Assembly (NCBI RefSeq): GCF_019599295.1
Contig: NZ_JAIEWN010000028.1
Span: 9,084-46,328, forward strand
Direction of reading: 5' to 3'
Source of the DNA: Oscillochloris sp. ZM17-4
GTDB lineage: Bacteria > Chloroflexota > Chloroflexia > Chloroflexales > Chloroflexaceae
Length of the DNA stretch: 37,245 bases
Both the position numbers and the translations under genes were made by a program. Positions 8,763 through 28,553 of this stretch are shown one piece after another. How positions within the stretch are numbered: the first letter of the stretch is position 1; each line of letters opens with the position of its first letter. The notes under the pieces were generated by a model, which was given only the letters and a program-made list of their open reading frames with translations, did not search any database and was not told the origin of the DNA.

Positions 8763-9282
8763 TTAATCGCTGCTGGCGGAGCTGCGCTCGACCCAGGCCA
8801 GAATACCGTCGACCACGGCGTGCGGGCGGTGAATCCCGGTATCGATACGGGCGGATAGCTGTTCGCGCAGGTGCTGCGCATCGTGGAGCGCGTCGGCGAT
8901 CTGATCCTCGCTCCATCCCGGGCGATCCCGAAGTCGTGCCTGGCGTGTCTGCGCATCACAATCGAGCAACAGCCACGCGATCCGGTCAACCCACGGAAGC
9001 CTCCCGACACGCGCAAGATCCTCGCGGTCGAGGGGCGCGAAGAGGAGCGCGATCATTCCGTTGCGCGACACCGCGTGAAGAATCTCCAGCCAGAGCCGGT
9101 TATAGGCCGGCCACGTCGCCTGGTCAGCGCGGATATCGCGCTGCGCAAGCTGCGATGCGGCCGGGAGCAGCTCGTCGATATTCAAAGGCCAGGTAGGGCG
9201 TCGCGCGACTGCGGAGCACGGTCAAGGCGGTGGTCTTCCCCGCACCGGGAGCGCCCGTGATGAGGTAGAGTGTTCGGGTCAT
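8763..9282 (-). pseudogene. AAA P-loop kinase-like protein, frameshifted
   Basis: The gene starts MTRTLYLITGAPGAGKTTALTVL (Walker A GAPGAGKT), with GGAGG upstream, and should continue TPYLAFNIDELLPAASQLA. One extra base at about 9182 (TTTGAATATC where TTTAATATC would keep the frame) breaks it. The second part then reads NIDELLPAASQLA ... RIAWLLLDCDAQTRQARLRDRPGW to a stop at 8763, with the lid R-x2-R residues intact. A TTG could restart the second part. Total length would be about 173 residues. It resembles nucleotide kinase-like ATPases of unknown substrate. Confidence 0.7.
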
Positions 9283-9437
9283 CCATCCTCCCGGCGTGCC
9301 CGACACGCGTCGAAGATCGGGGTGAGCAGCCTATCGGCCCCATAAAAAGACTCCTACAATATAGCTCGTACGCCAACGCCACGGCGCGGGGACTGTCCGC
9401 CTTGAGGCGGCAGGGGAAGCGCCGGGCAAGCAGCTTC

Positions 9438-9466
9438 TTGCGAGAACGCTGTGTATATGGTAGAAT
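9438..9466 (+). promoter_or_regulatory. tnpB promoter TTGCGA-N17-TAGAAT
   Basis: TTGCGA (9438-9443) and TAGAAT (9461-9466) are separated by 17 bp, and the ATG of tnpB follows 9 bp after the -10 box. The mRNA would be nearly leaderless. Confidence 0.55.
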
Positions 9467-9475
9467 ATATGTGCT

Positions 9476-10411
9476 ATGCAACGTACGCTTCGCGTGAAAC
9501 TCACCCCCTCCACGACACAGGCTGGGCTGCTGGCTGAAACCAGCCGCCTGTTCACGGCGGCCTTTAACGCCGTCTGCCGCGTGGGATGGCAACAGAAGAT
9601 CACCAACGGGGCCGATCTGCATCACGCGACCTACTACCCGACGCAGGCAGACTACCCTGCGCTCGTTTCGGATCTGTTGATCCAGGCGCGGGTCAAGGCA
9701 ACCGAAGCCGTCAAAAGCGCGTTTGCCTCGCAGAAGGCCGGGCGCACGGTTGGGATGCCGCAATCGGACGCCTGCCCGCCGCGCTATAACCGGCACACCT
9801 ATAAGGTCGATTGGGAGAGCCAGACGGTGCGCTTCCTGGGCAAGCCTGCCTGGAAGGCGATTGAGGGGCGGCTGTTCTACCTCAAACGCCAGCTTCAGCG
9901 GAAGGGGAGCAAGAGCGCCAAGCGACATCTGCGCACGGTGCGGGGGAAACAGGCCCGCTTTCGGCGTGACTGTGATCACGTCCTCTCCAAGCAGATTGTC
10001 CAGTCGGCGCATCCCGGTGCGACGATTGTGCTGGAGAACCTGACCCACATTCGGAAGCGGTCGAAGATCCGTAAGCAGACGAAAACCAGCCGCCGCGTCC
10101 ATAGCTGGTCGTTCGCGCAGATCACGTCGTTCGTGGCGTACAAAGCCGAGGAACGGGGGTGTACGGTGGCGGGGGTCGATCCCCGGCATACCTCGCAGAC
10201 CTGTAGCTGCTGTGGGCACCAGGCCCGCACCAACCGCCGTTCCCGTGGCCGGTTTGTGTGTCGGGTGTGTGGCTTCGAGCTGCATGCCGACCTCAACGCG
10301 GCGCGGAATAGTGCGGCCACGTACCATGCCAGCGGGGGTAGATCTCCTGTTGGCGGGCTGCCTGTCAACCAGCCAATCGTGTCCGTCCCGACGCTTCGGC
10401 TTCGGAAGTGA
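9476..10411 (+). CDS. tnpB: TnpB homologue lacking the RuvC-I segment
   Basis: TnpB is the RNA-guided nuclease of IS200/IS605 elements, guided by an omega RNA from the element's right end. This copy is 311 residues against roughly 370-420 usual. It keeps the N-terminal domain (LRVKLTPSTTQAGLL), the GSKSAKRHLR segment, RuvC-II glutamate E187 in IVLENLTHIRK, the four-cysteine zinc finger (C243/C246 and C262/C265, GVDPRHTSQTCSCCG) and RuvC-III aspartate D272 in HADLNAARN. Between about residues 120 and 124 the text jumps from the WED strand (WESQTVRFL) to AWKAIEGRLFYLKRQLQ, so the DLG-type segment with the first catalytic aspartate is gone. Nuclease activity is not expected. Decay is the simplest explanation. 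Confidence 0.85.
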   Translation: MQRTLRVKLTPSTTQAGLLAETSRLFTAAFNAVCRVGWQQKITNGADLHHATYYPTQADYPALVSDLLIQARVKATEAVKSAFASQKAGRTVGMPQSDACPPRYNRHTYKVDWESQTVRFLGKPAWKAIEGRLFYLKRQLQRKGSKSAKRHLRTVRGKQARFRRDCDHVLSKQIVQSAHPGATIVLENLTHIRKRSKIRKQTKTSRRVHSWSFAQITSFVAYKAEERGCTVAGVDPRHTSQTCSCCGHQARTNRRSRGRFVCRVCGFELHADLNAARNSAATYHASGGRSPVGGLPVNQPIVSVPTLRLRK

Positions 10412-10419
10412 GGCACAAG

Positions 10420-10439
10420 CTGTCGCGTTTACGCGACAG
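10420..10439 (+). other. Right-end stem-loop of the TnpB element
   Basis: A perfect inverted repeat CTGTCGCG-TTTA-CGCGACAG lies 8 bp after the tnpB stop. In this class it is the right-end palindrome and also part of the omega RNA 3' scaffold. The outer 9-bp pair 10361-10369/10443-10451 could enclose it. Confidence 0.6.
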
Positions 10440-10451
10440 TCAGTTGACAGG

Positions 10452-10693
10452 CTGTCTGGGTGCCCGCTCCACCAGCGGGCGATCCAGCCGTACTGGCGCA
10501 GGGTCGGGCGGGCGGTGTTCCCCGGCGGGTAGGCGCCCGAGTCGAGGATGACCGAGACGTTGGGCTGGCTGCGTAGGTAGCGCTCGGCTGGCGAGCCGGC
10601 GGGCACCAGGAAGTGGCGCTGGCCGACCAGCCGACAGACCGCCCAATCCCGGGCGCATGGCGATCGGCCGATCGCGAAGTAGAACTGAGGCAT
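10452..10693 (-). pseudogene. TGT-like (DpdA-type) protein, N-terminal fragment cut by the TnpB element
   Basis: The reading begins MPQFYFAIGRSPCARDWAVC, with GAGGAGGAG just upstream, and contains NVSVILDSGAYPPGNTARPT. LDSGAY with a nearby aromatic tail (YGWIARWWSGH) is the pattern of tRNA-guanine transglycosylase-like proteins found on phages and plasmids, including DpdA, which inserts 7-deazaguanine in DNA. Only about 80 residues remain before the right end of the TnpB element. The start is 3 bp after the stop of the helicase remnant, so the two formed an operon. The family assignment rests on one motif. Confidence 0.4.
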
Positions 10694-10695
10694 CG

Positions 10696-12670
10696 TTACT
10701 CCTCCTCGTAGAGCCAGCGGCAAAGCTGGCCGAGCCGCCGGCCGATACCGCCCTGGGCGTAGGTGATCGCCCACGCCAGCGGCGGCCAGCCGCCGCAGCT
10801 GGGTCAGGTCGAGGTAGGGGGTGAGCGTGCTGCGCCGGCCTTCGGTGACCGCCTCCAGCGCGGGCAGGCGCTCCGCCGGCGGGTCGAGGTCGGGCACCTC
10901 ACGGGTGGTCTCGTGGGTAATCACGGCGGGCAGCCAGCGCAGGCCGGTCGCCGCCTTGGTCGAGTGGGAGATCAGGGCGATCACCGCCGGCGCGTCGCTG
11001 TGCGCACAGCGGGCCATCCAGCGGTCCACGTCGGTGTGGTCGCGGATGACCAGCACCTCGGCCGCCGGGAAAGCCCCGGCGATCTCGCGCCGCCAGGTCG
11101 GGATGACCCGCCAGGTCGGGATGACCCGCTTGGGCGGGGCGATCCAGATCGGCAATGCCCTGGGCGCTCGTCCGTCGGTGTGCCGGTTCGCCTTCCAGGC
11201 CTTGGCCAGCCGGCGTGCCCAGGAGGGCTTCTTCTCGCCGTGAAATGCAGTGGCTTGCTCCTCCCAGTAGTGACAGAGGGTGGCGATCAGGGCGATGACC
11301 TGGCGGGTCTTGCCAACCCCCGGCTCGCCAGCGAACATGGCCCGGCCGCCGTCCCAGAGGGCGCGGCGCAGGGCGAAGACCCGGTGCATCTGCGCCGGCG
11401 CGAGGCCGGGATGCTCCGCACCGGGGAGCTGCTTGTCCAGGCCAATCTGGGCGACCACGCGGACCTCCCAGTCCGCGGGGTCAAGCTGATAGCGCGGCTG
11501 GTGCTTGTCTAAAACCTGGACGGCCAGGGTCGGCAGCAGCGGCTGGAGAAAGGCGAAGGCGGCGTCGTTCTGGTAGTGGCTGACCGCGCCGGTAGCGAGG
11601 TCGAGCACGCCCAGGACGGGGTTGTCCTCGATCTGCGAGACCTCGACCACGCCCTTGGCGCGCTGGTCGTCGTCGACCGGCATGCGCGTGGCTTGCTTGG
11701 AGGTTGCGGTGGTGATGACGAAGCGCTCGCCGTTGGGGCCGTCGAGGATATCGCCGTCGAGCAGGCCGGAGAGGATGAGCGCGGCCAGGTGGGCCGGGCC
11801 GGTCGGCGGCATCAGCGGGCGGGCGAAGACGCCCTCCGCCTGCAGGGTGACCGCCTGCTGCCAGGCGGGGCTGTGGTGGAGGCCGCCGGCCTCCAGCCCG
11901 CGCAGCAGCGCGTCCTCGTCGGCGTGGAGCACGAGGATCTCGGGTATCGTCGGCGCGGACGGCAGGAGGTAGGGGTCGGCGATCGGATGATCGGGCAGAA
12001 CGGGCGGCGGCGTGCCGCCGGCCCAGGTCTGGGTCTCCGTGTCGTAGCGCCAGCCCTGGAGCTGGGCCTTGACCATCGGGTCGGGCGTCTCCAGCGGGCT
12101 GAGCCGCTTCACGCCGGCGACGACGATCTGGGAGTACTTCTGAAAGGACGTGTCGGCGTTGGTGTCGCCATCGGGGAAGCGCCAGCAGCGCAGCTGCTGA
12201 TAGTTGCGGGCGTAGTGGTTGATCAGGGTGCCGTCGAGGCCCGAGCGGGCCGGGATGACCGCGAGGCTGACGCCGCCGGCGACCAGGGCCTTGGTAACGA
12301 GCACCTGGGCCGCGTACTCGGCGCGGCGGCCGTCGTCAAGCCGCACGTAGGGCGGGTTGGTCACGCACAGGCTAAACGAGTCGGGCGTCGGCCGGGTCGC
12401 CTCAAACGGCGCCCGCACGATCGTCGCGCCGGGCAGCCGCTGGCGGGCGGACTCAGCCCGCTCCGCGCTGATCTCGATGCCGAAGAGCCGGGCGGTGGGG
12501 AGATGGACAAAGGGGGCCAGCAGATTGCCGGCGCCGCAGCCGGTCAGGTCGCCGATCGCCACCGGGGTGGCGGCCGGAATAGTCACCAGGTGCCGGAGGG
12601 CGTCGGCGTGAACCTGGGGCGTGGGGATGTGCTGAGAAATCGCCATCCCGCCGAGGGGGCCGCTGCTCAT
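10696..12670 (-). pseudogene. DUF6094-type adenine methylase fused to helicase, internally deleted
   Basis: The N-terminal third is a SAM-dependent N6-adenine methylase: motif I AIGDLTGCGAGNLLAPF (38-54), acidic LFGIEIS, and catalytic NPPY at 105-108, followed by the LAVIPARSGLDG and SQIVVAGVKR strands typical of DUF6094. A second part from about residue 380 is an SF2 helicase-like ATPase with Walker A FAGEPGVGKTRQ (448-455) and APPKRVIPTW. The helicase loses its DEAH-type motif II and C-terminal lobe: after about residue 620 it jumps to LTPYLDLTQLRRLAA and then, by a frame change near 10770, to ITYAQGGIGRRLGQLCRWLY and a stop at 10696. The start has GAGGACTCT before ATG. Such fusions sit on plasmids and ICEs as orphan defence or methylation genes. 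It is probably inactive. Confidence 0.65.
11091..11126. repeat. Exact 18-bp tandem duplication inside the helicase
   Basis: CGCCAGGTCGGGATGACC occurs twice in a row with no mismatch. In the minus reading it duplicates RVIPTW (RVIPTWRVIPTW), in frame, within motif Ia of the helicase. It looks recent and is probably a replication slip. Confidence 0.85.
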
Positions 12671-14160: not shown

Positions 14161-17421
<3,261 letters not shown>

Positions 17422-17463
17422 ATGGGTCTCCACCACGACGATCATGCGCAGGAAGTAGCTGAA

Positions 17464-17469
17464 ATTATA
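17464..17469 (-). promoter_or_regulatory. -10 box TATAAT of the hybrid kinase
   Basis: A perfect TATAAT on the minus strand, 42 bp upstream of the chosen ATG. No clear -35. It settles the start codon of the kinase because the more distal ATG would lie upstream of the transcript. Confidence 0.55.
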
Positions 17470-17649
17470 GTATCCACCCAAAAGCGTTGGGGATGGTTTT
17501 CACGACAGGGCGTAACGCTTTCTTCGGGCCAAAAGAGCGTTTCAAATCGATTGTCGGGGCGCTCTGCCGCTCTGCTTGGCGGAGCCGACGGCCCGGTCCA
17601 GGTGCAGTGCTCAGCGGCTCGACCGAACGCATGGCCGAGGCGGGCAGGC

Positions 17650-17962: not shown

Positions 17963-20900
17963 CTACCCTTTGGCGAGCCGGTAGCCCACACCCCGCTCGG
18001 TGAGGATGTAGCACGGCTGCTTGGGGTCTGCCTCGATCTTCTGGCGCAGATGGGCGATGTGCACCCACAGGTAGTTGTTCTCCGCGCCGTAGGTCTCGCC
18101 CCAGACGGCCCTGAGGATCTGCGCGTGGGTCAGCACCTGGCCGGCGTGCTGGGCCATATACGCCAGGATGCCATACTCGGTCGGCGTCAGGCTGACTTCC
18201 TGCCCGGCGACGCTGACCTGGCGCTGGGCCAGATCTACCGTGAGGTGGTCGATCTGGATGAGCGAGATGCCGCCGGGCTCCATCTGGGGCTGGGCGCGGC
18301 GCAGCACCGCTTCCATACGCGCCAACAGCTCGCTCAGACGGAACGGTTTGGTCACATAGTCGTCGGCGCCGAGCTGGAGCCCGCGCACAATATCCTGCTC
18401 GGCTGAGCGCGCGGTGAGCATGATGATCGGCACGTTGGTCCACTCGCGCAGCTGCCGGCACAGCGCGAGCCCATCGACCCCCGGCAGCATCAGGTCGAGC
18501 AGCACCAGATCGGGCGGCTGCTGGGTGAGCGCGTCGAGCGCCCCCTGGGCCTCCACGACCGTCTGCACGGCGTAGCCCGCGTCGGCCAGGCTGCGGTCGA
18601 GCATCCGGCGCAGGGCGCGGTCGTCGTCCACCACCAGCACCCGCGTGGCGCCGTCGTGGCGCACGGCGACCTGCGGCTCCACAACCCGCGTCTCGGCCGG
18701 GAGCGTGAACCAGAGCTCGGCCCCGCCGCCGGGCGCGTCGGCGACCCCGATCTGCCCGCCGTGGGCCTCCACCAGGGCCTTGCAGATCGCCAGCCCGAGC
18801 CCGCTGCCGCTGCTCGCCACGCCAGCCTGCGCGATCTGGTAGAAGCGCTCGAAGACCCGCGCGCGCTCGCCCGGCGGGATGCCCGGCCCCTGGTCGCGCA
18901 CGCTGAGACGCACTGCGCCATCCTCCGTGGATGCGCTCAGCGTGATCACGCCGCCCTCCGGCGAGAACTTGACCGCGTTGTCGAGCAGGTTATGCAGCAC
19001 CTGCTCGACCCGGCGCAGGTCGGCGTTCACCGGCGGCAGCTCGGCCGGCAGATCGGCCTGGATGCGCAGCCCTTCGGCGCGCTCGCGCTGCTGGCGCAGC
19101 ACCTGCTGGATGCGCGGCCCCAGGGCGACCGGCGTGCGCCGCAGCCGCAGGGCGCCGGCCTCAACCTGGGCGAGGCTGAGCAGGTTATCGATCAGCTCCT
19201 CGAGCCGGTCGCTCTGCGCATCGATGATCTGCAGAAACTCGTGGACCCGCCCAGGGTCGGCCTCGCCGCTCTGCAGCAGGGTCTCGGTGCAGCCCTTGAT
19301 CGCCGTGAGCGGCGTGCGCAGCTCGTGGCTCACCAGGGCCACGAAGTCGGCCTTGAGCCGCTCGACCTCGCGCAGCTGGCGCAGGTCCTGAAACACCGCG
19401 ACCGCCCCGGTCACCACGCCGCCGTCATCGCGCAGCGGGACACTCGTAGTCAGCACCGGCACGCGTGTGCCGTCGGGCGCGATGATCACCAGCTCGATGT
19501 TGTGGCGCTCCTGGCCATCGGCCAGCGTTGCCGCCAGAGGCAGCCGCTGGGGCGCGACCGGCTCACCGCCGGGGCGGAAGGCGCGGCCGACGAGCGGGTG
19601 CGCGCGCAGGGTCGCGTCTGGCGCCAGGTCACCGAGCAGCGCGTGCGCGCGGTGATTCACCAGCGCGAGCCGCCCCTCCGGCGCCTCGGCGACCACGAGG
19701 CCCGCCGGCGAGTGGTCGAAGATCGCCTGCAGCCGCTGGCGCCCGGTCGCGGCCTCGGCATAGAGCCGGGCATTATCGAGCACCAGCCCGACCTCGGCGG
19801 CCAGCGTGCCGTAGAAGGCGAGGTCGGCCGGGTCGAATGCGTTGGGCCGCTCGCCCATGAGCACCAGTGCGCCGAATGCCTGGGCGCGCCCGCGCAGCGG
19901 CAGGACGAGCCCGCTGCGCGCGCCGAGAAGCACCCCGGCGACGGCGGATGTCTCCAGCGAAAGGTTGGCCGCCTGTGTATCGCCGATCAGCACATCCTGC
20001 CCTTCGGCGACCGCCTGCACCAGCAGCTCCTCGGCGGGCGTGCGCGGAGTCTCCTCCAGGCCGGGGATGGAGCTCGGCGCGGCCCGGGCGATCCACACGC
20101 CATCTGCGGGCAGCCCGAGGGCGCGCGCGATCGTCAGCAAGATGTTCCGCGCGCGCTCACCGGGCTGCACACTGAGCGCCGAGGCCGAGGCGACGGCGTG
20201 CAGCACGGTGAGCTGGCGGTTCTGCCGCTCGGCAGCAGCGAGCTGGGCCGCGCGCTCGGCGGCGAGCTGGGTGACGCGGGCCTGCTCGCTTGCTAGCGCC
20301 CGCATCAGCCCGACCATGCGCCAGAAGGCGGCGAAGACGACCACCAGGGCGGCCAGCCCGAGGATGCCGAGGACGACGGAGATCAGCGTCTGGAGCGTGC
20401 GGGCCTGGCTCGCCTGAGCGCTGAGCTCGCCCTCGGTGACCTGAATCTGGGCCTGGATACGCTGGAGCTGGCCGCGAATCGCGTCGAAGCGCCGCTGGCT
20501 CTCGCCGACCGCGAGGTCGGCGGCGGCATCCGAGAGCCGGCCCTGCGCGACCAGGGCGACCTGACGGTCCAGGCTCTCGCGCTGCCAGGCCATAATCGCT
20601 CCCGTCAGCTCGGCGAGCGGGGCGGCGAGCGCCGGGTCGACCAGGACCCCTGACTCAATAAGCAGCTCCAGCTGGGCGGGCAGCGCCGTCGCCGCCGCAT
20701 CATACTGCGCGCGGAAGTCCGGGCTCTGCGCGATGAGGTAGCCGCGCGCGTCGGCCTGCATCTGCTGCAGGCTGTTCTCGGTGTCGCTGAGCTGCACCGC
20801 CAGGGTCTGGGCGTGCTCCAGCTCGACTGCGATGGCCGTGTCGCGCAGGTCGACCAGCGGCGGGAGCACCACCAGGGCTAGCAGCACCAGCACGGTGAAG

Positions 20901-20980
20901 ATGAGCAGGCCGAGCAGCAGGTTGCGCGCGCGCCCGCTCAGCGGAAGCGATAGCGCATGATGAGCAATCGATTGTTCCAT
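17963..20980 (-). CDS. Membrane-anchored HK-REC-winged-helix single-chain two-component regulator
   Basis: A 1005-residue protein that carries sensor, kinase, receiver and DNA-binding output on one chain. TM1 is at 20-40, then a CHASE3-like extracytoplasmic domain (about 45-190), TM2 (198-220), coiled coil, GAF (255-405), PAS (415-535), HisKA with H552 in ALVSHELRTPL, HATPase (N box LHNLLDNAVKFSPEGG, GPGIP, SGLGLAI), REC with acid pair D785/D786, D829 in LVLLDLMLPGVDG, T856 and K878, and finally an OmpR/PhoB winged helix (905-1005, LTPTEYGILAYMAQHAGQVL and YLWVHIAHLRQKIE). The start has AAGGAG. Because of the TM anchor, the transcription factor part would act at the membrane unless cleaved. 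It is divergent from the bactofilin-like gene, sharing the intergenic hexamer array. Confidence 0.9.
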   Translation of the reverse strand: MEQSIAHHALSLPLSGRARNLLLGLLIFTVLVLLALVVLPPLVDLRDTAIAVELEHAQTLAVQLSDTENSLQQMQADARGYLIAQSPDFRAQYDAAATALPAQLELLIESGVLVDPALAAPLAELTGAIMAWQRESLDRQVALVAQGRLSDAAADLAVGESQRRFDAIRGQLQRIQAQIQVTEGELSAQASQARTLQTLISVVLGILGLAALVVVFAAFWRMVGLMRALASEQARVTQLAAERAAQLAAAERQNRQLTVLHAVASASALSVQPGERARNILLTIARALGLPADGVWIARAAPSSIPGLEETPRTPAEELLVQAVAEGQDVLIGDTQAANLSLETSAVAGVLLGARSGLVLPLRGRAQAFGALVLMGERPNAFDPADLAFYGTLAAEVGLVLDNARLYAEAATGRQRLQAIFDHSPAGLVVAEAPEGRLALVNHRAHALLGDLAPDATLRAHPLVGRAFRPGGEPVAPQRLPLAATLADGQERHNIELVIIAPDGTRVPVLTTSVPLRDDGGVVTGAVAVFQDLRQLREVERLKADFVALVSHELRTPLTAIKGCTETLLQSGEADPGRVHEFLQIIDAQSDRLEELIDNLLSLAQVEAGALRLRRTPVALGPRIQQVLRQQRERAEGLRIQADLPAELPPVNADLRRVEQVLHNLLDNAVKFSPEGGVITLSASTEDGAVRLSVRDQGPGIPPGERARVFERFYQIAQAGVASSGSGLGLAICKALVEAHGGQIGVADAPGGGAELWFTLPAETRVVEPQVAVRHDGATRVLVVDDDRALRRMLDRSLADAGYAVQTVVEAQGALDALTQQPPDLVLLDLMLPGVDGLALCRQLREWTNVPIIMLTARSAEQDIVRGLQLGADDYVTKPFRLSELLARMEAVLRRAQPQMEPGGISLIQIDHLTVDLAQRQVSVAGQEVSLTPTEYGILAYMAQHAGQVLTHAQILRAVWGETYGAENNYLWVHIAHLRQKIEADPKQPCYILTERGVGYRLAKG

Positions 20981-21082
20981 GACCTGGTCGTCTCCTTGGG
21001 CTCACACGGCGGCGGCTGCGCCCGGCAGCGCCCGTCATGTGGGCCCGCCGATAGCCCCAGGGTCAGGGGCCTACAGGAAGTG

Positions 21083-21120
21083 TTACGGTCGGCTGGGTTC
21101 ATTTTACGGCACTATTGCGG
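21083..21120 (+). promoter_or_regulatory. Operator array 1: TTACGG-N15-TTACGG-N5-TTGCGG
   Basis: Three hexamers at 21083, 21104 and 21115 are spaced 21 and 11 bp start to start, that is two and one helical turns. The array ends 69 bp before the bactofilin-like start and about 100 bp from the divergent kinase/OmpR-type gene. The identical geometry recurs at 22793-22830 (minus) and 22874-22911 (plus). Direct repeats 10-11 bp apart are how OmpR/PhoB-family regulators bind DNA. Assignment to the adjacent regulator is inference. Confidence 0.65.
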
Positions 21121-21189
21121 TTGGGCGGGCATGCTTGGCTGTGAGGAATGACGATAGATCGCATCGCCGATAGCGAGAAGGAGAACCAT

Positions 21190-22428
21190 ATGCGACTGAT
21201 GTCCCGCCTGGCCCGCTGGCCGGTGCTGCTCACCGGGGTGCTGCTGGCGCTCCTGGCGGCCGCCCCGGCGCTTGCGGCCGAGGTCGCCGGCGGCGACAGC
21301 TACCGCCTGGAGGCCGGGGAGGTGATCGCCGACGACCTCTACGTGAGCGCGGCGGAGGTGATCATCGCCGGCACCGTCGAGGGCGACCTGATCGCGGCGG
21401 GCGCCTATATCGAGGTGAGTGGCCGCGTGACCGGCGACGCCACGCTTGCCGGCGCGGCGGTGGTGGTGAGCGGCACGATCGACGATGATCTGCGGGCCGC
21501 AGCGGCCGGGCTCGACGTGTCCGGCACGGTCGGCGACGACCTGCTGGCCGGCGGCGGCGGCGGGGGCTTCGCCGCGCCGTTCGTCGTCGCCGGGCGCAAC
21601 GTCGTTCCGGGCGTGCGGATCGCCGACAGCGCACAGGTGGGCGGCGACGCGCTCCTGGCTGGCGGCCAGGGGACGATCGCCGGCACGATCGACGAGGACC
21701 TGCGGGCGGCGATGGGCGACCTGACCCTGGCGGCACAGGTTGGTGGCGATGCCCGGCTTGCCAGCGAGCGGATCGCCGTGCAGACGCCCGCCCAGATCGA
21801 TGGGGTGCTGCGCTACACCAGCGCCGAGCCAATCAGCGCGCCCGACGGCGTCGCTGCCGATGTGGTGTATGTGGCGCCCCCGGCGGAGCCCGCGCCTGCG
21901 CCCGGCGAGCAGGCCCTCGCCTGGGCGCTGCGCACGCTGCTGGTGCTGCTGGGCTTCGCGCTGCTGGGCGGGCTGCTGCTGCGCGTCTGGCCGGCGGCGC
22001 TGCTCACCCCCGCCCGCGCGATCGCCGCCCGGCCCGGGCGGGCCAGCCTGTACGGCTCACTGGCGCTGATCTTCCTGATGGCCCTCCCGCTGCTCTCGGC
22101 CCTGCTGGTCTTCCTGATGGTGCTGTTCTGGGGCTGGTGGCCTGGGGTGGTGCTCGGGCTGGCCCTGTTCGGCATGCTCGGGCTGCTCTGGTTCCTCAGC
22201 CCGCTGATCACCGGCGCCTGGCTCGGGCGCTGGCTGGCCCGCGCCACCGGCCGCGCGCCGGACGCCTGGCTCGCCGCGCTTAGTGGCGTGCTGCTGCTGG
22301 CGCTGCTGATGCAGATCCCCTACCTGGGCTGGCTGGTTGCGCCGGTGAGCTTTGTGCTCGCCCTCGGCGGCCTGCTGCTCGCGCGCCGCACCCCGGATGC
22401 GCGGGCAGAGCCGGTCATGAACCGCTAA
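21190..22428 (+). CDS. Bactofilin-like/polymer-forming membrane protein
   Basis: A 412-residue protein. The start MRLMSRLARWPVLL is chosen because AAGGAG sits 9 bp upstream. Residues 1-30 are a signal peptide with AALA cleavage. Residues about 35-225 are a right-handed parallel beta repeat (DDLYVSAAEVIIAGTVEGDL, VSGTIDDDLRAAAAGLDVSG, AGTIDEDLRAAMGDLTL), the polymer-forming bactofilin-type repeat. Residues about 250-400 hold roughly five transmembrane helices. Extracellular bactofilin repeats with a membrane anchor may form a shape- or envelope-stress scaffold. It is transcribed away from the single-chain regulator and its promoter carries operator array 1. Confidence 0.8.
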   Translation: MRLMSRLARWPVLLTGVLLALLAAAPALAAEVAGGDSYRLEAGEVIADDLYVSAAEVIIAGTVEGDLIAAGAYIEVSGRVTGDATLAGAAVVVSGTIDDDLRAAAAGLDVSGTVGDDLLAGGGGGGFAAPFVVAGRNVVPGVRIADSAQVGGDALLAGGQGTIAGTIDEDLRAAMGDLTLAAQVGGDARLASERIAVQTPAQIDGVLRYTSAEPISAPDGVAADVVYVAPPAEPAPAPGEQALAWALRTLLVLLGFALLGGLLLRVWPAALLTPARAIAARPGRASLYGSLALIFLMALPLLSALLVFLMVLFWGWWPGVVLGLALFGMLGLLWFLSPLITGAWLGRWLARATGRAPDAWLAALSGVLLLALLMQIPYLGWLVAPVSFVLALGGLLLARRTPDARAEPVMNR

Positions 22429-22476
22429 GCGGGCGGTGCGGCGCCGATAGGGGATGCTGCGGCCGGTGCCGCCGGC

Positions 22477-22737
22477 CTATGGCAACTGCTGTATCAGCAG
22501 CCGGGCCAGGCCCACCGCGAGCAGCGCGCCGACCGCCGCGGCGAGCACGCTCAGCGGGCAGAGCACATTGAGCGGGCCGGCCGCGAACGTCAGCGCCGCA
22601 GTCCCACCGAGCACGGCGCCCATCACCCCGCTGATCACGTACACCGCCAGCGTGCTGCGCGGCGGGTGCCGGCTCAGCCGGTCCGCCGCCCAGCCGATCA
22701 GCAGGCCGCAGAGGAGCCACCCCAGCAGATTCACCAT
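22477..22737 (-). CDS. GlsB/YeaQ/YmgE-type stress membrane protein
   Basis: An 86-residue protein with three hydrophobic segments (MVNLLGWLLCGLLIGWAADR, VYVISGVMGAVLGGTAALTF, LSVLAAAVGALLAVGLARLL) and the glycine pattern GxxxGxxA/GVMGAVLGG of transglycosylase-associated small stress proteins. The start has GGAGG about 10 bp upstream. It is convergent with the bactofilin-like gene, only 48 bp apart, and has its own operator array (array 3) 55 bp upstream. Function in the family is poorly defined, but it is usually an envelope stress gene. Confidence 0.75.
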   Translation of the reverse strand: MVNLLGWLLCGLLIGWAADRLSRHPPRSTLAVYVISGVMGAVLGGTAALTFAAGPLNVLCPLSVLAAAVGALLAVGLARLLIQQLP

Positions 22738-22792
22738 GGCGCCCAGCCCTCCTCGCTGCCCGCGCTCCCGTGATGCGAGGCTACACGACACG

Positions 22793-22830
22793 CCGTAAGC
22801 CGACCGTAAGGGCGGTGCGGCCAGCCGTAT
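22793..22830 (-). promoter_or_regulatory. Operator array 3: ATACGG-N15-TTACGG-N5-TTACGG
   Basis: Read on the minus strand, the hexamers lie at 22830-22825, 22809-22804 and 22798-22793, with the same 15- and 5-bp gaps as array 1, pointing to the GlsB-like start 55 bp away. TTACGGTCGGCT is shared exactly with array 1. It is back to back with array 2. Confidence 0.65.
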
Positions 22831-22873
22831 GGTTCCCGCGAGAACGGGCTACGGCGGCAATCTTCAGGCGATG

Positions 22874-22911
22874 TTGCGGTTGCGGCAGGCGATCTTGCGG
22901 CAGGCTTACGG
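22874..22911 (+). promoter_or_regulatory. Operator array 2: TTGCGG-N15-TTGCGG-N5-TTACGG
   Basis: Hexamers at 22874, 22895 and 22906 have the same 15/5 gaps. The array ends 53 bp before the oxidoreductase ATG. An additional TTGCGG overlaps at 22880, and the first two units sit in a 21-bp repeat (AGGCGATnTTGCGG, 22866 and 22887). Confidence 0.65.
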
Positions 22912-22964
22912 TTCCGCGCATACCTTCGTCGGTAGTCGAACACCCTGGAGAAGGAGGATGCCCG

Positions 22965-23942
22965 ATGAAGGCGATGGTCTACCACCGCTATGGCCCCCCC
23001 GATGTCTTGACGTGTGCGGACGTGCCACAGCCGACCCCCGGCGACAACGAGGTGCTGGTCCGCGTGCACGCGGCGGGCGTGAATGCCGGGGACTGGCACC
23101 TGCTGCGCGGGTCGCCCTTTCTGGTCCGCCTGATGTTTGGGCTGCGCCGGCCAAAGCGGCCCATCATCGGCTCGGATGTCGCCGGGCAGATTGACGCGGT
23201 CGGCAGCAAGGTTACGCGGCTGAAACCCGGCGACGCCGTGTTCGGCGAGCTCTCCTCGTCGGGGTTTGGCGCCTTTGCCGAGTACGCATGTGCCAGGGAG
23301 GAGGCGCTGGTACGGAAGCCGGACAACCTGAGCTTTGCGGAGGCGGCCGGCGTGCCGCTGGCGGCGCTCACCGCCCTGCAGGGGCTGCGCGACGTCGGCC
23401 AGATCCAGCCCGGGCAAAAGGTGCTGGTCAACGGCGCCTCGGGCGGGGTGGGCAGCTTCGCCGTGCAGCTCGCCAGGTCCCTCGGGGCCGAGGTGACGGG
23501 CGTCTGCAGCACGAGCAAAGTGGACATGGTGCGCGCGCTCGGGCCAGACCATGTGATCGACTACACGCAGGAGGATGTGACCCGCAGCGGCCGCCAGTAC
23601 GACCTGATCCTCGACGCCGCGGCCTATCGCCCATTTTCCGATTACCAGCGTGCGCTCACGCCCACGGGGACCTATGTCCTGGTTGGCGGCGCCACCAAAC
23701 GGCTGTTGCAGGTGATGATCATGGGGGCGATGCGCTCCAAAAAAGGTGGGCAGCAGTTCAAAACCTTCATCCTGCAGTCAAAGCTCACCAACCTGCAGTT
23801 CATCAAGGAGCTGGTTGAGGCCGGCAAACTGAAGCCGGCCATCGACCGCTGCTACCCGCTCGAGGAGCTGCCAACCGCGCTGCGCCAGCTTGAGGCGGGT
23901 CAGGCCCGAGGCAAGGCCGTCATCGCGCTGGCGCACGGCTGA
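22965..23942 (+). CDS. MDR-family NAD(P)-dependent quinone oxidoreductase
   Basis: A 325-residue zinc-independent medium-chain dehydrogenase. The start MKAMVYHRYGPPDVLTCADV is preceded by GGAGG. It has the GroES-like N domain (VHAAGVNAGDWHLLRG, GSDVAGQIDAVG) and Rossmann nucleotide loop VLVNGASGGVGSFAVQLA. The zinc-binding cysteine cluster and catalytic Cys/His of alcohol dehydrogenases are absent, as in quinone oxidoreductase/zeta-crystallin types. It should reduce quinones or reactive alkenals with NAD(P)H. It begins a plus-strand run with a DUF4386 protein, and carries operator array 2 in its promoter, which links it to the bactofilin-like and GlsB-like genes. Confidence 0.85.
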   Translation: MKAMVYHRYGPPDVLTCADVPQPTPGDNEVLVRVHAAGVNAGDWHLLRGSPFLVRLMFGLRRPKRPIIGSDVAGQIDAVGSKVTRLKPGDAVFGELSSSGFGAFAEYACAREEALVRKPDNLSFAEAAGVPLAALTALQGLRDVGQIQPGQKVLVNGASGGVGSFAVQLARSLGAEVTGVCSTSKVDMVRALGPDHVIDYTQEDVTRSGRQYDLILDAAAYRPFSDYQRALTPTGTYVLVGGATKRLLQVMIMGAMRSKKGGQQFKTFILQSKLTNLQFIKELVEAGKLKPAIDRCYPLEELPTALRQLEAGQARGKAVIALAHG

Positions 23943-23972: not shown

Positions 23973-24710
23973 ATGACAGCCCGCACCAACGGGACATCGC
24001 CGCGGGTCTACGCCCGCATCGTCGGGGCGCTGTACCTGCTGATCTTCTTCGTCGGCCCCTTCGCCTTCTTTATGGGCCGGACCAGCGTCGTCGTGCCCGG
24101 CGATCCCGCCGCGACGGTCAATACCTTGCTGGCATCCGAGACCATGTTCCGACTCGGTATGGTCGCCGAAACCGTGATCGTGCTGGTGGAGATCGTGGTG
24201 AGCGCCCTGCTGTACGTGCTGTTCCGGCCGGTAAGCCGTCCGCTCGCGCTGGCGGCGGCGTTTGCCCGCTTCGCCCAATCCATCCTCCAGGCGGTCAACC
24301 TGATCACCGCGGTCCCCGCCCTGCTGCTCCTGGGCGGCGCCGGCTATGTGACCGTCTTCGCGCCGGAGCAGGTGAGCGCGCTGGTGCTCCTGTCCCTCGA
24401 TGCCAACGCATTTGTGATCATCATCTGGGGGCTGCTCTTCGGGTTTCACCTGCTGCTCCTCGGCTACCTGGTCTACCGGTCGGGCTTTATGCCGCGTATC
24501 CTGGGCATCCTGCTGATCATCGGCGCGGTCGGCTACCTGGCCCAGAGCTACGGGCACATCCTGGTGCCGCAGTATGACGAGCTCCTCTCGACCGTGGTCA
24601 TCGTGCTGTCGATCCCGGGGGAGCTGGCGTTTACGGTCTGGCTGCTCTGGAAGGGCGTGAATATCGAGCGGTGGGAGCAGCGTGCGCTCACACCTGCCGT
24701 CGCATCTTAA
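23973..24710 (+). CDS. DUF4386 integral membrane protein
   Basis: A 245-residue six-helix membrane protein matching DUF4386: YARIVGALYLLIFFVGPFAF opens it, followed by TVNTLLASETMFRLGMVAE, QAVNLITAVPALLLL and the late YRSGFMPRILGILLIIGAVG motif, which is diagnostic. GGAGGAAACGCT precedes the ATG. It lies 30 bp after the oxidoreductase and 13 bp before the 42-residue peptide, so all three are co-transcribed. No function is known for the family. Confidence 0.8.
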   Translation: MTARTNGTSPRVYARIVGALYLLIFFVGPFAFFMGRTSVVVPGDPAATVNTLLASETMFRLGMVAETVIVLVEIVVSALLYVLFRPVSRPLALAAAFARFAQSILQAVNLITAVPALLLLGGAGYVTVFAPEQVSALVLLSLDANAFVIIIWGLLFGFHLLLLGYLVYRSGFMPRILGILLIIGAVGYLAQSYGHILVPQYDELLSTVVIVLSIPGELAFTVWLLWKGVNIERWEQRALTPAVAS

Positions 24711-24852: not shown

Positions 24853-24978
24853 CAGCAGGAACCGCGATCCCCACAGGTGCCAGCGCTCCACAGTTGGGCG
24901 CACCTGGCAGATGGCGCGGATCGCCGCCAGCACGTGCCGCCCACGCAGAATACCAGCCAGGGATCGACGCGAGGCGAT

Positions 24979-26553
24979 GTGTTTGATATCACCAGCTTTA
25001 CGCTTCAGGATATGACCCGCTGCGGCGCGGCGCTGCGCGGCCTGGGCGACGGCGCCGCGTCCATGGAGGCGACCGCCGATCGGATCGTCCGCTTCCTAGA
25101 CGACCACCTGCGCGATAGCGCCGGCGCGAAGGCCTGCGCCCTGGCGCGCCTGTTCATCACCCGGCGCTACCGCGACCTCGACGCCGACCTGCAGCGCCAC
25201 GCCCAGCGGCTGCTCGGCGCTATGCCCGAGGACACCGGGCTCCTGTGTCAGACCCTGCTGGCGACGGTCGGCGCGCAGCCCGGCTGGAACGACCGCCGCC
25301 GCTCCACCTACTACAAGACGCTGCCGCTCACCCCGGAGGTCATCGAGCAGAACCCGATGTATCTCCAGTTCGCTGAGACCTTCGGCGTCATCCTGGACCG
25401 CTCGGTCACGCCCGATCCCCAGCTCATCGCCGATCTGGAGCAGACGAGCTACAATGTCTTTCACGTGCCCGATGCCCTGGGCAGCCCGTATATCCCCGAT
25501 CAGGAGCACTTCGTCATCCCCTGCGGCATCCGCTCGGTGCTCGGCTTCTTCGGCATGCTGCCCAGCGGCCAGATCTACTCGGTCGTCATCTTCACCCGCG
25601 TGGCGATCCCGCGCGCGATCGTGACCTACCTCAAGTCGCTGGCCTTCCACGTCAAGCTGGCGATCCTGCCGTTCGACGAGATCGCGGTCTTCGCCGACAC
25701 CCCGATCGCCGCGCCGGACGACCAACGCCGGCAGATGGCCCAGCTGCGCTCGGAGGTCGGCGGGCTGCGCCAGCTGGTCGAGGTGCAGGAGCAGGTGGTG
25801 ATCGAGCAGGCCCAGCACCTCTCGGCGCTGCTTGACGAGCGCCGCCGGCAGGCCGAGCAGCTCGCGGCGACGAATAGCGACCTGGAGCGCCAGATCGCCG
25901 AGAACGAGCGGCTGCGCCAGCAGGCCGCCGAGCGGGCGATTCTGGAAGAGCGCAACCGGCTGGCGCGCGATCTGCACGACTCGGTCACCCAGTCGCTCTA
26001 CAGCCTGACCCTGTTTGCCGAGGCCAGCCAGCGCCTCCTGAGCGGCGGCAGCGGCGAGCGGGCGGCTGCCTATCTCGGCCGGATCGGCGAGACGGCGCAG
26101 CAGACCCTCAAGGAGATGCGGCTGCTGGTCTACGAGCTGCGCCCCCTGGCCCTCGAGCGCACTGGCCTGGTCGGGGCGCTCCAGCAGCGCCTGGAGGCGG
26201 TCGAGGGGCGCGCGGGCGTCGCGGCCAGGCTGCGGGTCGAGGGCGCGATCGCGCTGGCCCCCGCAGCCGAGGAGGGGCTCTATCACATCGCGCAGGAGGC
26301 GCTCAATAACGCGCTGAAGCACGCCCACGCGCAGACGGTCGAGATCCGACTTACCGCCACGGACGCGCATCTCCGCCTGACCGTGGAGGACGATGGGCAG
26401 GGCTTCAACCCACACCAAGAGCGCGGCGGCGGGATGGGCCTGGTGAGCATGCACGAGCGGGCCGCGGGCCTTGGCGCAACGCTTGACATCGCCTCGGTGC
26501 CGGGCACGGGGACGCAGGTGCGCCTGGAGCTACAGCACGCGCAGCAGGGGTGA
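24979..26553 (+). CDS. DICT-domain sensor histidine kinase (NarL/HisKA_3 type)
   Basis: A 524-residue cytoplasmic sensor kinase. The GTG start VFDITSFTLQDMTRCGAALR has a GAGG upstream and matches the usual family length; ATG 25012 is an alternative. Residues 1-80 are helical (ALRGLGDGAASMEATADRIV), 100-240 form the DICT-like sensory domain (NVFHVPDALGSPYIPDQEHF, CGIRSVLGFFGMLPSGQIY), 246-325 are coiled coil. HisKA_3 has H333 in LARDLHDSVTQSLYSL, and the HATPase has NNALKHAHA, DDGQGF and GGGMGLVSMHERA. It is 37 bp upstream of a LuxR-type regulator, its likely partner. No TM segments, so it senses inside the cell. Confidence 0.9.
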   Translation: MFDITSFTLQDMTRCGAALRGLGDGAASMEATADRIVRFLDDHLRDSAGAKACALARLFITRRYRDLDADLQRHAQRLLGAMPEDTGLLCQTLLATVGAQPGWNDRRRSTYYKTLPLTPEVIEQNPMYLQFAETFGVILDRSVTPDPQLIADLEQTSYNVFHVPDALGSPYIPDQEHFVIPCGIRSVLGFFGMLPSGQIYSVVIFTRVAIPRAIVTYLKSLAFHVKLAILPFDEIAVFADTPIAAPDDQRRQMAQLRSEVGGLRQLVEVQEQVVIEQAQHLSALLDERRRQAEQLAATNSDLERQIAENERLRQQAAERAILEERNRLARDLHDSVTQSLYSLTLFAEASQRLLSGGSGERAAAYLGRIGETAQQTLKEMRLLVYELRPLALERTGLVGALQQRLEAVEGRAGVAARLRVEGAIALAPAAEEGLYHIAQEALNNALKHAHAQTVEIRLTATDAHLRLTVEDDGQGFNPHQERGGGMGLVSMHERAAGLGATLDIASVPGTGTQVRLELQHAQQG

Positions 26554-26590
26554 TCGCGGCCGGCACCGGCCGGCTGAGAGAGAGGTGGTG

Positions 26591-27274
26591 ATGATGACCG
26601 CAGCGCCGATCCAGATCCTGATCGCCGACGACCACGCGGTCGTGCGCCAGGGGCTGCGCGCCCTGATCGAGACCGAGCCGGGGATGGAACTGGTGGGCGA
26701 GGCCCAGGACGGCCTGGAGGCCGCGGCTATGGCCCGCGCGCTTCAGCCCGATGTCATCCTGCTCGACATGGTCATGCCGCGCCAAGACGGCCTGGCGACG
26801 ATCGCGCAGATCACGGCCGAGCGGCCCGACGCCCGCATCCTGGTGCTCACCAGCTTCGCCGACGACGAGCAGGTCTTCCCGGCGATCAAGGCCGGCGCGC
26901 TCGGCTACCTCCTCAAGGACTCCTCGCCCCAGCAGCTGCTCCAGGCGATCCGCGACGTCTTCCAGGGCGAGTCATCGCTGCACCCGACGATCGCGCGCAA
27001 GCTGGTCCAGGAGCTTAGCCGCCCCGCGGAGCGGCCCCTGGCCCAAGATCCGCTCACCGAGCGCGAGGTCGAGGTGTTGCGCCAGGTTGCCCAGGGACGC
27101 TCGAACCAGGAGATCGCCGACCACCTCATCCTGAGCGAGCGCACGGTGCGCACCCACGTCAGCAGCATCCTCGACAAGCTGCACCTGGCCAATCGCACCC
27201 AGGCCGCGCTCTACGCCCTGCGCACCGGCATCAGCGACCTGCAGCCCGAGGAGCCCCACCGTCATTTGTCGTAG
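26591..27274 (+). CDS. NarL/LuxR-family response regulator
   Basis: A 227-residue response regulator. The receiver (1-120) has acidic pair in ADDH, D59 in VILLDMVMPRQDG, T in VLTSF and K in YLLKDSSP. A LuxR HTH lies near the end: LTEREVEVLRQVAQGRSNQE, IADHLILSERTVRTHVSSIL. GAGAGAGAGG is upstream of adjacent ATGs (26591 and 26594). It follows the DICT kinase, which should phosphorylate it. The targets are unknown. Confidence 0.92.
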   Translation: MMTAAPIQILIADDHAVVRQGLRALIETEPGMELVGEAQDGLEAAAMARALQPDVILLDMVMPRQDGLATIAQITAERPDARILVLTSFADDEQVFPAIKAGALGYLLKDSSPQQLLQAIRDVFQGESSLHPTIARKLVQELSRPAERPLAQDPLTEREVEVLRQVAQGRSNQEIADHLILSERTVRTHVSSILDKLHLANRTQAALYALRTGISDLQPEEPHRHLS

Positions 27275-27869: not shown

Positions 27870-28553
27870 ATGCGAGGAATTCAGAGGCCGGGCGGCATCG
27901 CCGCGCTGTACCAGGGGCTGGCCTACGTCGTCGGGATGATCGGGTTTCTGCTGGTGGTGAACGTGGGCGACGTGGCCGACCCGGCCCAGAAGGTGGCCCT
28001 GATCGGCGAGCACCAGGGCTTCCTGTCGCTCCTGCACCTGGTCGTCTACGTCTTCTGGGGCATCGCGATGGTCGTGCTGGCCCTGGCGGTCCACGAGCGG
28101 CTGCAGGGCGGCGCTCCGGCGCTGATGCAGGTGGCGAGCGCCTTCGGGCTGATCTGGGCTGGCCTGGTGCTGGCCAGCGGCATGATCTACAACGTTGGCA
28201 TGCAGGCCGTGGTCGGGCTGGCCGGCACGGCGCCGGAGCAGGCCGCGCCGACCTGGCTGGCGATCGAGGCGGTCTTCAACGGGCTGGGCGGTGGGGTCGA
28301 GGTCGTCGGCGGGGTCTGGGTGCTGCTGCTGACCTGGGCGGCCCTGCGCGCGGGCGGCCTGCCGCGGGCGCTGAACCATTGGGGCCTGGGGGTTGGACTG
28401 GCGGGTCTCTGCACGGTCGTGCCGGCCATCAGCGAGGTCAGCGCGGCGGTGTTCGGGCTCAGCCAGATCGTCTGGTTCCTCTGGCTGGGGATTGTGCTGC
28501 TGCGCAGCCGCGCGCCCCATGCGGCCTACGAGCCGACGACCGCGGCGGCGTAG
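27870..28553 (+). CDS. Six-helix membrane protein of unknown function (DUF4386-like)
   Basis: A 227-residue protein with six predicted membrane helices (AALYQGLAYVVGMIGFLLVV, FLSLLHLVVYVFWGIAMVV, FGLIWAGLVLASGMIYNVG, VEVVGGVWVLLLTWAAL, GLGVGLAGLCTVVPAI, SQIVWFLWLGIVLLRS). The helix order resembles DUF4386 proteins, but the ending motif is absent. AAAGGAGG is 8 bp before the ATG. Function unknown. Confidence 0.7.
   Translation: MRGIQRPGGIAALYQGLAYVVGMIGFLLVVNVGDVADPAQKVALIGEHQGFLSLLHLVVYVFWGIAMVVLALAVHERLQGGAPALMQVASAFGLIWAGLVLASGMIYNVGMQAVVGLAGTAPEQAAPTWLAIEAVFNGLGGGVEVVGGVWVLLLTWAALRAGGLPRALNHWGLGVGLAGLCTVVPAISEVSAAVFGLSQIVWFLWLGIVLLRSRAPHAAYEPTTAAA

Follow-up and report, generated by a model that had tools for sequence, protein, structure and literature searches.

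Three short arrays of direct repeats, found in a stretch of 37,245 nucleotides from Oscillochloris sp. ZM17-4 (called here the window), are probably activator operators of the protein encoded beside them, a CHASE3-GAF-PAS-HK-REC-winged-helix regulator in which a KdpE-like DNA-binding domain is fused to its own membrane sensor kinase. The assignment has good support from comparative genomics: the same repeat geometry is found specifically in genomes with an orthologue of this regulator, beside its gene in one relative and before the homologue's own operon in three more distant ones.

The arrays are composed of hexamers of the TTRCGG type. Array 1 (21072..21120, plus strand) contains TACAGG (21072-21077), TTACGG (21083-21088), TTACGG (21104-21109) and TTGCGG (21115-21120). 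Array 2 (22793..22841, minus strand), read 5' to 3' on that strand, contains TCGCGG (22841-22836), ATACGG (22830-22825), TTACGG (22809-22804) and TTACGG (22798-22793), and it stands back to back, within one intergenic region, with array 3 (22863..22911, plus strand), which contains TTCAGG (22863-22868), TTGCGG (22874-22879), TTGCGG (22895-22900) and TTACGG (22906-22911). A preliminary description of this DNA had reported three hexamers per array at offsets 0, 21 and 32 (21083-21120 on the plus, 22793-22830 on the minus and 22874-22911 on the plus strand), and these were confirmed with zero, one (ATACGG) and zero mismatches to TTRCGG, respectively. The unit is larger than a three-repeat operator, as it comprises four repeats and a fixed -10 element: a weaker, degenerate hexamer (TACAGG, TCGCGG, TTCAGG) is located 11 bp upstream of each array, giving repeats at 0, 11, 32 and 43. 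The full unit can be written as 6-N5-6-N15-6-N5-6-N9-(-10), in which two 6-N5-6 pairs have their centres 32 bp apart. Directly repeated half-sites about 11 bp apart, as in the OmpR/PhoB family, are seen in the 6-N5-6 pairs of all three arrays in the window and of the arrays in related genomes, which supports the earlier proposal of an OmpR/PhoB-type operator with its sites on one face of the DNA.

Dinucleotide shuffling of the window gave an expectation of 0.17 for TTRCGG at 0/21/32 with up to three mismatches. When the assembly (6.69 Mb, 98.6% complete) was searched by pattern with at most one mismatch, four matches were obtained, of which three were arrays 1-3 and the fourth was on another contig, while 0.09 matches were estimated from base composition. 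The reversed pattern, applied as a control at the same threshold, had no match here and about ten matches in a set of 61 genomes. On these three grounds the spacing is not a product of chance and the pattern does not occur in the genome at chance frequency, as the preliminary description had anticipated. The fourth match (C115:1106; L004/L099) was rejected as probably fortuitous, having neither a matching repeat at -11 nor a -10 hexamer at spacer 9 and a matrix score of 9.8 versus 37-43; a tandem run of the GGCGGCCCGTCCGGTTTTGTC unit is found close to it. A search with the four-repeat pattern again returned arrays 1-3 alone plus weak matches, and no comparable array with other hexamers was found in the flanks of 30 Trans_reg_C genes of this genome. 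Judged from sequence, the operators appear to be restricted to the locus of the regulator, so that the regulon would comprise three neighbouring promoters in a 2-kb interval and would not extend over the genome. Three copies so close together could also be taken for remnants of a duplicated promoter or of a tandem repeat without regulatory meaning. This explanation has a negligible probability, because the sequences between the hexamers are unlike one another in arrays 1-3, array 2 is inverted, and distant genomes show a matching geometry with another hexamer, beside the regulator there.

Independent evidence that the arrays are parts of promoters is provided by a -10-like hexamer, which had no role in defining or finding them. 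It starts 9 bp after array 1 (CATGCT, 21130..21135, plus strand), array 2 (TAGCCT, 22778..22783, minus strand) and array 3 (TACCTT, 22921..22926, plus strand), and the three arrays of related genomes (G006, G016 and G027) have TACACT, CATACT and CATACT likewise 9 bp past the last repeat. When spacers from 0 to 34 were scanned, NANNNT was present at spacer 9 in all six arrays and at any other spacer in three of the six at most; the summed matches to TATAAT over the six arrays were 21 at spacer 9 and did not exceed 13 elsewhere, although individually these predicted -10 hexamers match TATAAT only moderately. Two of the six arrays belong to a single genus and do not count separately; with five arrays treated as independent and 25 spacers allowed for, the chance of the hexamer at spacer 9 is about 2e-6 to 7e-6. 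With the hexamer placed at -12 to -7, the starts of the four repeats fall near -70, -59, -38 and -27, hence in six of six arrays they overlap the -35 region at a fixed distance from the predicted -10, which is a class II (PhoB-like) promoter layout. The proximal repeats cover the -35 region, and sites in this position can also give repression, in which case the hybrid regulator would bind the arrays and its dimers over -38 to -22 would block RNA polymerase. The fixed 9-bp distance to the -10 and the exact rotational phase nonetheless match what would be expected for a class II activator like PhoB, the sites of which overlap -35 (PMC3348028), and repression is considered unlikely.

The regulator itself (17963..20980, minus strand, 1005 aa) has the architecture TM-CHASE3-TM-GAF-PAS-HisKA-HATPase_c-REC-Trans_reg_C according to Pfam, hydropathy and alignments, with TM-like segments at about residues 20-41 and 197-225 (hydropathy). 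Its Trans_reg_C domain (PF00486) was matched with 92.6 bits at a cut-off of 26.2, which places it in the OmpR/PhoB DNA-binding family, and the presence of TM segments, HisKA, HATPase_c, Response_reg and Trans_reg_C in one chain gives it the composition of a hybrid transmembrane transcription regulator (hybrid TTR), which would act on transcription from the membrane. Residues H552 and D829 are invariant in the alignment of close orthologues. No array of this genome is directed at the regulator's own promoter; array 1 shares the divergent region and points away. Directly downstream of the regulator gene a second large hybrid kinase is encoded (14161-17481, minus strand), with PAS/GAF, HisKA, HATPase_c and two REC domains and without a DNA-binding domain.

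The start codons of the three putative target genes are preceded by purine-rich ribosome-binding sites, read from the sequence, and lie 69 bp (array 1), 55 bp (array 2) and 53 bp (array 3) from the last repeat, in agreement with the 53-69 bp given previously. Target 1 (21190..22428, plus strand) is a secreted or membrane protein with a C-terminal cluster of membrane segments, and its former label of bactofilin-like can be retained as a weak similarity only, the match being below the Pfam cut-off (23.4 versus 27.9 bits). Target 2 (22477..22737, minus strand) is a small hydrophobic membrane protein of 86 aa, formerly called GlsB-like, a name without support from Pfam, which gave no match even at E 1. 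For target 3 (22965..23942, plus strand), the label of a zinc-type/MDR oxidoreductase is upheld by Pfam, and the gene of a DUF4386 membrane protein (Pfam; 23973..24710, plus strand), which begins 30 bp past it, is probably on the same transcript. A second, diverged DUF4386 gene is located at 27870-28553, and the two flank a HisKA_3 kinase/LuxR-type regulator pair (24877-27274). Elsewhere in the window (9182-12670, minus strand) a protein of 1162 residues is encoded, with methyltransferase (DUF6094) and weak SNF2-like matches. Neither the bactofilin orthologues of relatives nor the bactofilin paralogue of this genome are preceded by arrays; the target genes are not conserved, so that targets turn over.

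The comparison across the order included 82 genomes, with the studied genome designated G000. A contig scan returned mostly unrelated kinases; close orthologues of the regulator are present in three other genomes, namely G016 (Candidatus Viridilinea mediisalina) and G027, both with 48% identity, and G006, with 60% identity over residues 354-1004. The four-repeat pattern with at most two mismatches was detected in all four genomes with a close orthologue (G000, G006, G016 and G027) versus four of the 78 others (Fisher p 4e-5), the latter rate being at or below the level of the reversed control. In G006 the array TTTTGG-N5-TTAAGG-N15-TTAAGG-N5-TTAAGG is found 60 bp past the regulator gene and before a radical SAM superfamily gene. 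In G016 and G027 the arrays (four perfect TTAAGG in G027) are situated upstream of orthologous oligopeptide-transporter operons, on contigs other than that of the regulator. A weaker array with two mismatches (G027:C271:1254-1302, L096) lies between two genes and points at no gene start; although located upstream of a gene for a solute-binding lipoprotein, it faces the other way, and it may be readable on either strand, its TTAAG repeats being nearly palindromic. When the -10 was added to the pattern and 400 sampled genomes of the phylum were scanned, G000 (two matches) and G006 alone had exact matches. Contiguous four-repeat arrays occur in distant Chloroflexota, one of TTAAGG type at 0/11/21/32 (L261, G392:C33:31056-31108) and one of TGAGG type at 0/10/21/32 (L260, G431:C2:252910-252962), both followed 9 bp on by a -10-like hexamer; they could represent a second, filled form of the operator, the relation being uncertain.

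An independent check is afforded by another family of the order, in which more distant homologues keep the domain order CHASE3, HisKA, HATPase_c, REC, Trans_reg_C. A matrix scan around the G058 homologue gave one outlier, TTTAGG-N5-TTTAGG-N14-TTTAGG, then GCAAGG, then CATAGT 9 bp on, which precedes an operon of two genes, one for a membrane protein (sub-threshold glycosyltransferase-family match) and the other for the homologue itself. The species of G076 and G079 have the same array in the equivalent position. When the three promoters were aligned, the repeats and the -10 were invariant and parts of the spacers varied, which may be read as a modest footprint, given an overall identity of 84%. 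The exact TTTAGG array occurs once each in these three genomes, only before the homologue's operon, and nowhere else among the 82 genomes, hence in three genomes the putative operator precedes the operon of the regulator itself. For some wider Trp-type homologues, e.g. those of G046 and G271, no array was found in the stretches searched. The original idea that the arrays define the regulon of the HK-REC-winged-helix protein is therefore supported by comparative genomics as to the link, but the regulon appears local and its targets are not conserved; likewise, the expected conservation in orthologous promoters is found for the regulator but not for the targets, in view of the bactofilin orthologues without an array.

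It could be argued that a different, unlinked response regulator of the OmpR/PhoB family, such as a KdpE-like paralogue, uses the arrays, which would lie next to the hybrid gene by coincidence, as this genome has about 39 further Trans_reg_C proteins, several of them KdpE-like, and the transporter arrays of G016 and G027 are remote from the regulator. Against this, the occurrence of arrays follows that of the hybrid regulator from genome to genome, and in G000, G006, G058, G076 and G079 they are next to its gene or operon, whereas many genomes of the family with KdpE-like paralogues and without a hybrid orthologue have no arrays. Use by such a paralogue is accordingly improbable, and the hybrid regulator remains the preferred owner of the operators.

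Among solved structures, those of KdpE are the nearest to the REC-winged-helix part of the regulator. KdpE binds TTTATA-N5-TTTACA, in which the two leading T are invariant, and Arg193 of its recognition helix, conserved in KdpE orthologues only, is a possible base contact and is required for binding (PMC3264566). In alignments this position is occupied by Trp (Trp972 of the regulator) in each of the four genomes with a close orthologue and also in the G058-type homologues; most KdpE-like paralogues of this genome have Arg or Lys. The half-sites of hybrid-type arrays have kept TT and changed in the rest (TTRCGG, TTAAGG, TTTAGG). The regulator is thus not a KdpE orthologue, since it is fused to a CHASE3-GAF-PAS kinase, has no KdpD sensor domain and combines Trp972 with TTRMGG half-sites. 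A KdpE-like regulator of G047 with Arg at position 193 lies 1.2 kb off an array (G047:C6, L049:4566-4614; also L246) that reads TTTATG-N5-TTTATG-N15-TTTACG-N5-TTTACA, then 9 bp, TAAGCT, before a solute-binding protein gene. This single instance from an open-ended scan, in which a KdpE half-site accompanies an Arg regulator, is only suggestive of a repeat geometry older than the hybrid and of a half-site that follows residue 193. On a broader scale, it is possible, albeit somewhat doubtful, that a Chloroflexota clade of membrane-tethered hybrids changed its recognition helix (Arg193 to Trp) together with the half-site (TTTAYA to TT-NN-GG) and kept the rigid four-repeat geometry, and that the reach of these regulators is confined, in several genomes, to promoters a few kb at most from their own gene, the regulon being limited in cis by tethering.

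The most likely course of events is as follows. The extracellular CHASE3 domain would sense a signal, upon which the REC aspartate Asp829 would receive a phosphoryl group from His552. Winged helices would then pair head to tail on the repeats, each operator offering two dimer sites on one DNA face, 32 bp apart. The promoter-proximal dimer over -38 to -22 would replace the -35 contact and recruit RNA polymerase via sigma region 4 in a PhoB-like manner. The upstream dimer (repeats at about -70 and -59), on the same face, would lend stability to the complex, and the three promoters would fire. The repeats and their spacing, their uniqueness in the genome, their conservation with the regulator and the substitution in the recognition helix are seen directly in the sequences; DNA binding, phosphorylation, a positive sign of regulation and the order of these events are inferred.

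Hybrid two-component systems of Bacteroides resemble the present system in having the DNA-binding domain, the receiver and the sensor kinase on a single membrane-bound chain and in their local targets; they differ in an AraC-type domain in place of the OmpR/PhoB winged helix. The KdpE operator of E. coli kdpFABC (PMC3264566) is alike in its 6-bp direct repeats 5 bp apart, in TT as the first two bases and in having the closest solved winged helix. It differs in the hexamer (TTTATA/TTTACA versus TT[AG][AC]GG), in a single pair versus two pairs 32 bp apart, in Arg193 versus Trp972, and in KdpD and KdpE being separate proteins in contrast to the fused kinase described here. The pho box promoters of PhoB (PMC3348028, PMC4415409) share the head-to-tail repeats, which overlap the -35 (PMC3348028), and an activator that recruits polymerase, as is presumed here; their half-site is different, and in the present case two boxes are set apart by an extra 10 bp and the kinase is membrane-bound and fused. 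By analogy, the operator would act as two KdpE sites combined in a promoter of PhoB type. Hybrid TTRs, with membrane segments, HisKA, HATPase_c, REC and a DNA-binding domain in one chain as here, have been reported to be frequent in Chloroflexota (PMC10269533); that survey is domain-based, and the literature search found no paper giving an operator for a Chloroflexota hybrid TTR.

The locus supplies a concrete candidate operator, a promoter layout and a target list for one hybrid membrane regulator of Chloroflexota. A candidate specificity residue is offered by a natural comparison of KdpE-like (Arg, TTTAYA) and hybrid (Trp, TT-NN-GG) proteins. The findings also bear on the question of how a membrane-anchored transcription factor locates its targets, since the putative sites are few here and mostly adjacent to the regulator's own gene. 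As the four-repeat landing pads stand at a fixed distance from the predicted start of transcription and are matched in related bacteria that have the regulator, the DNA read by this type of sensor, and the genes it would turn on, become predictable.
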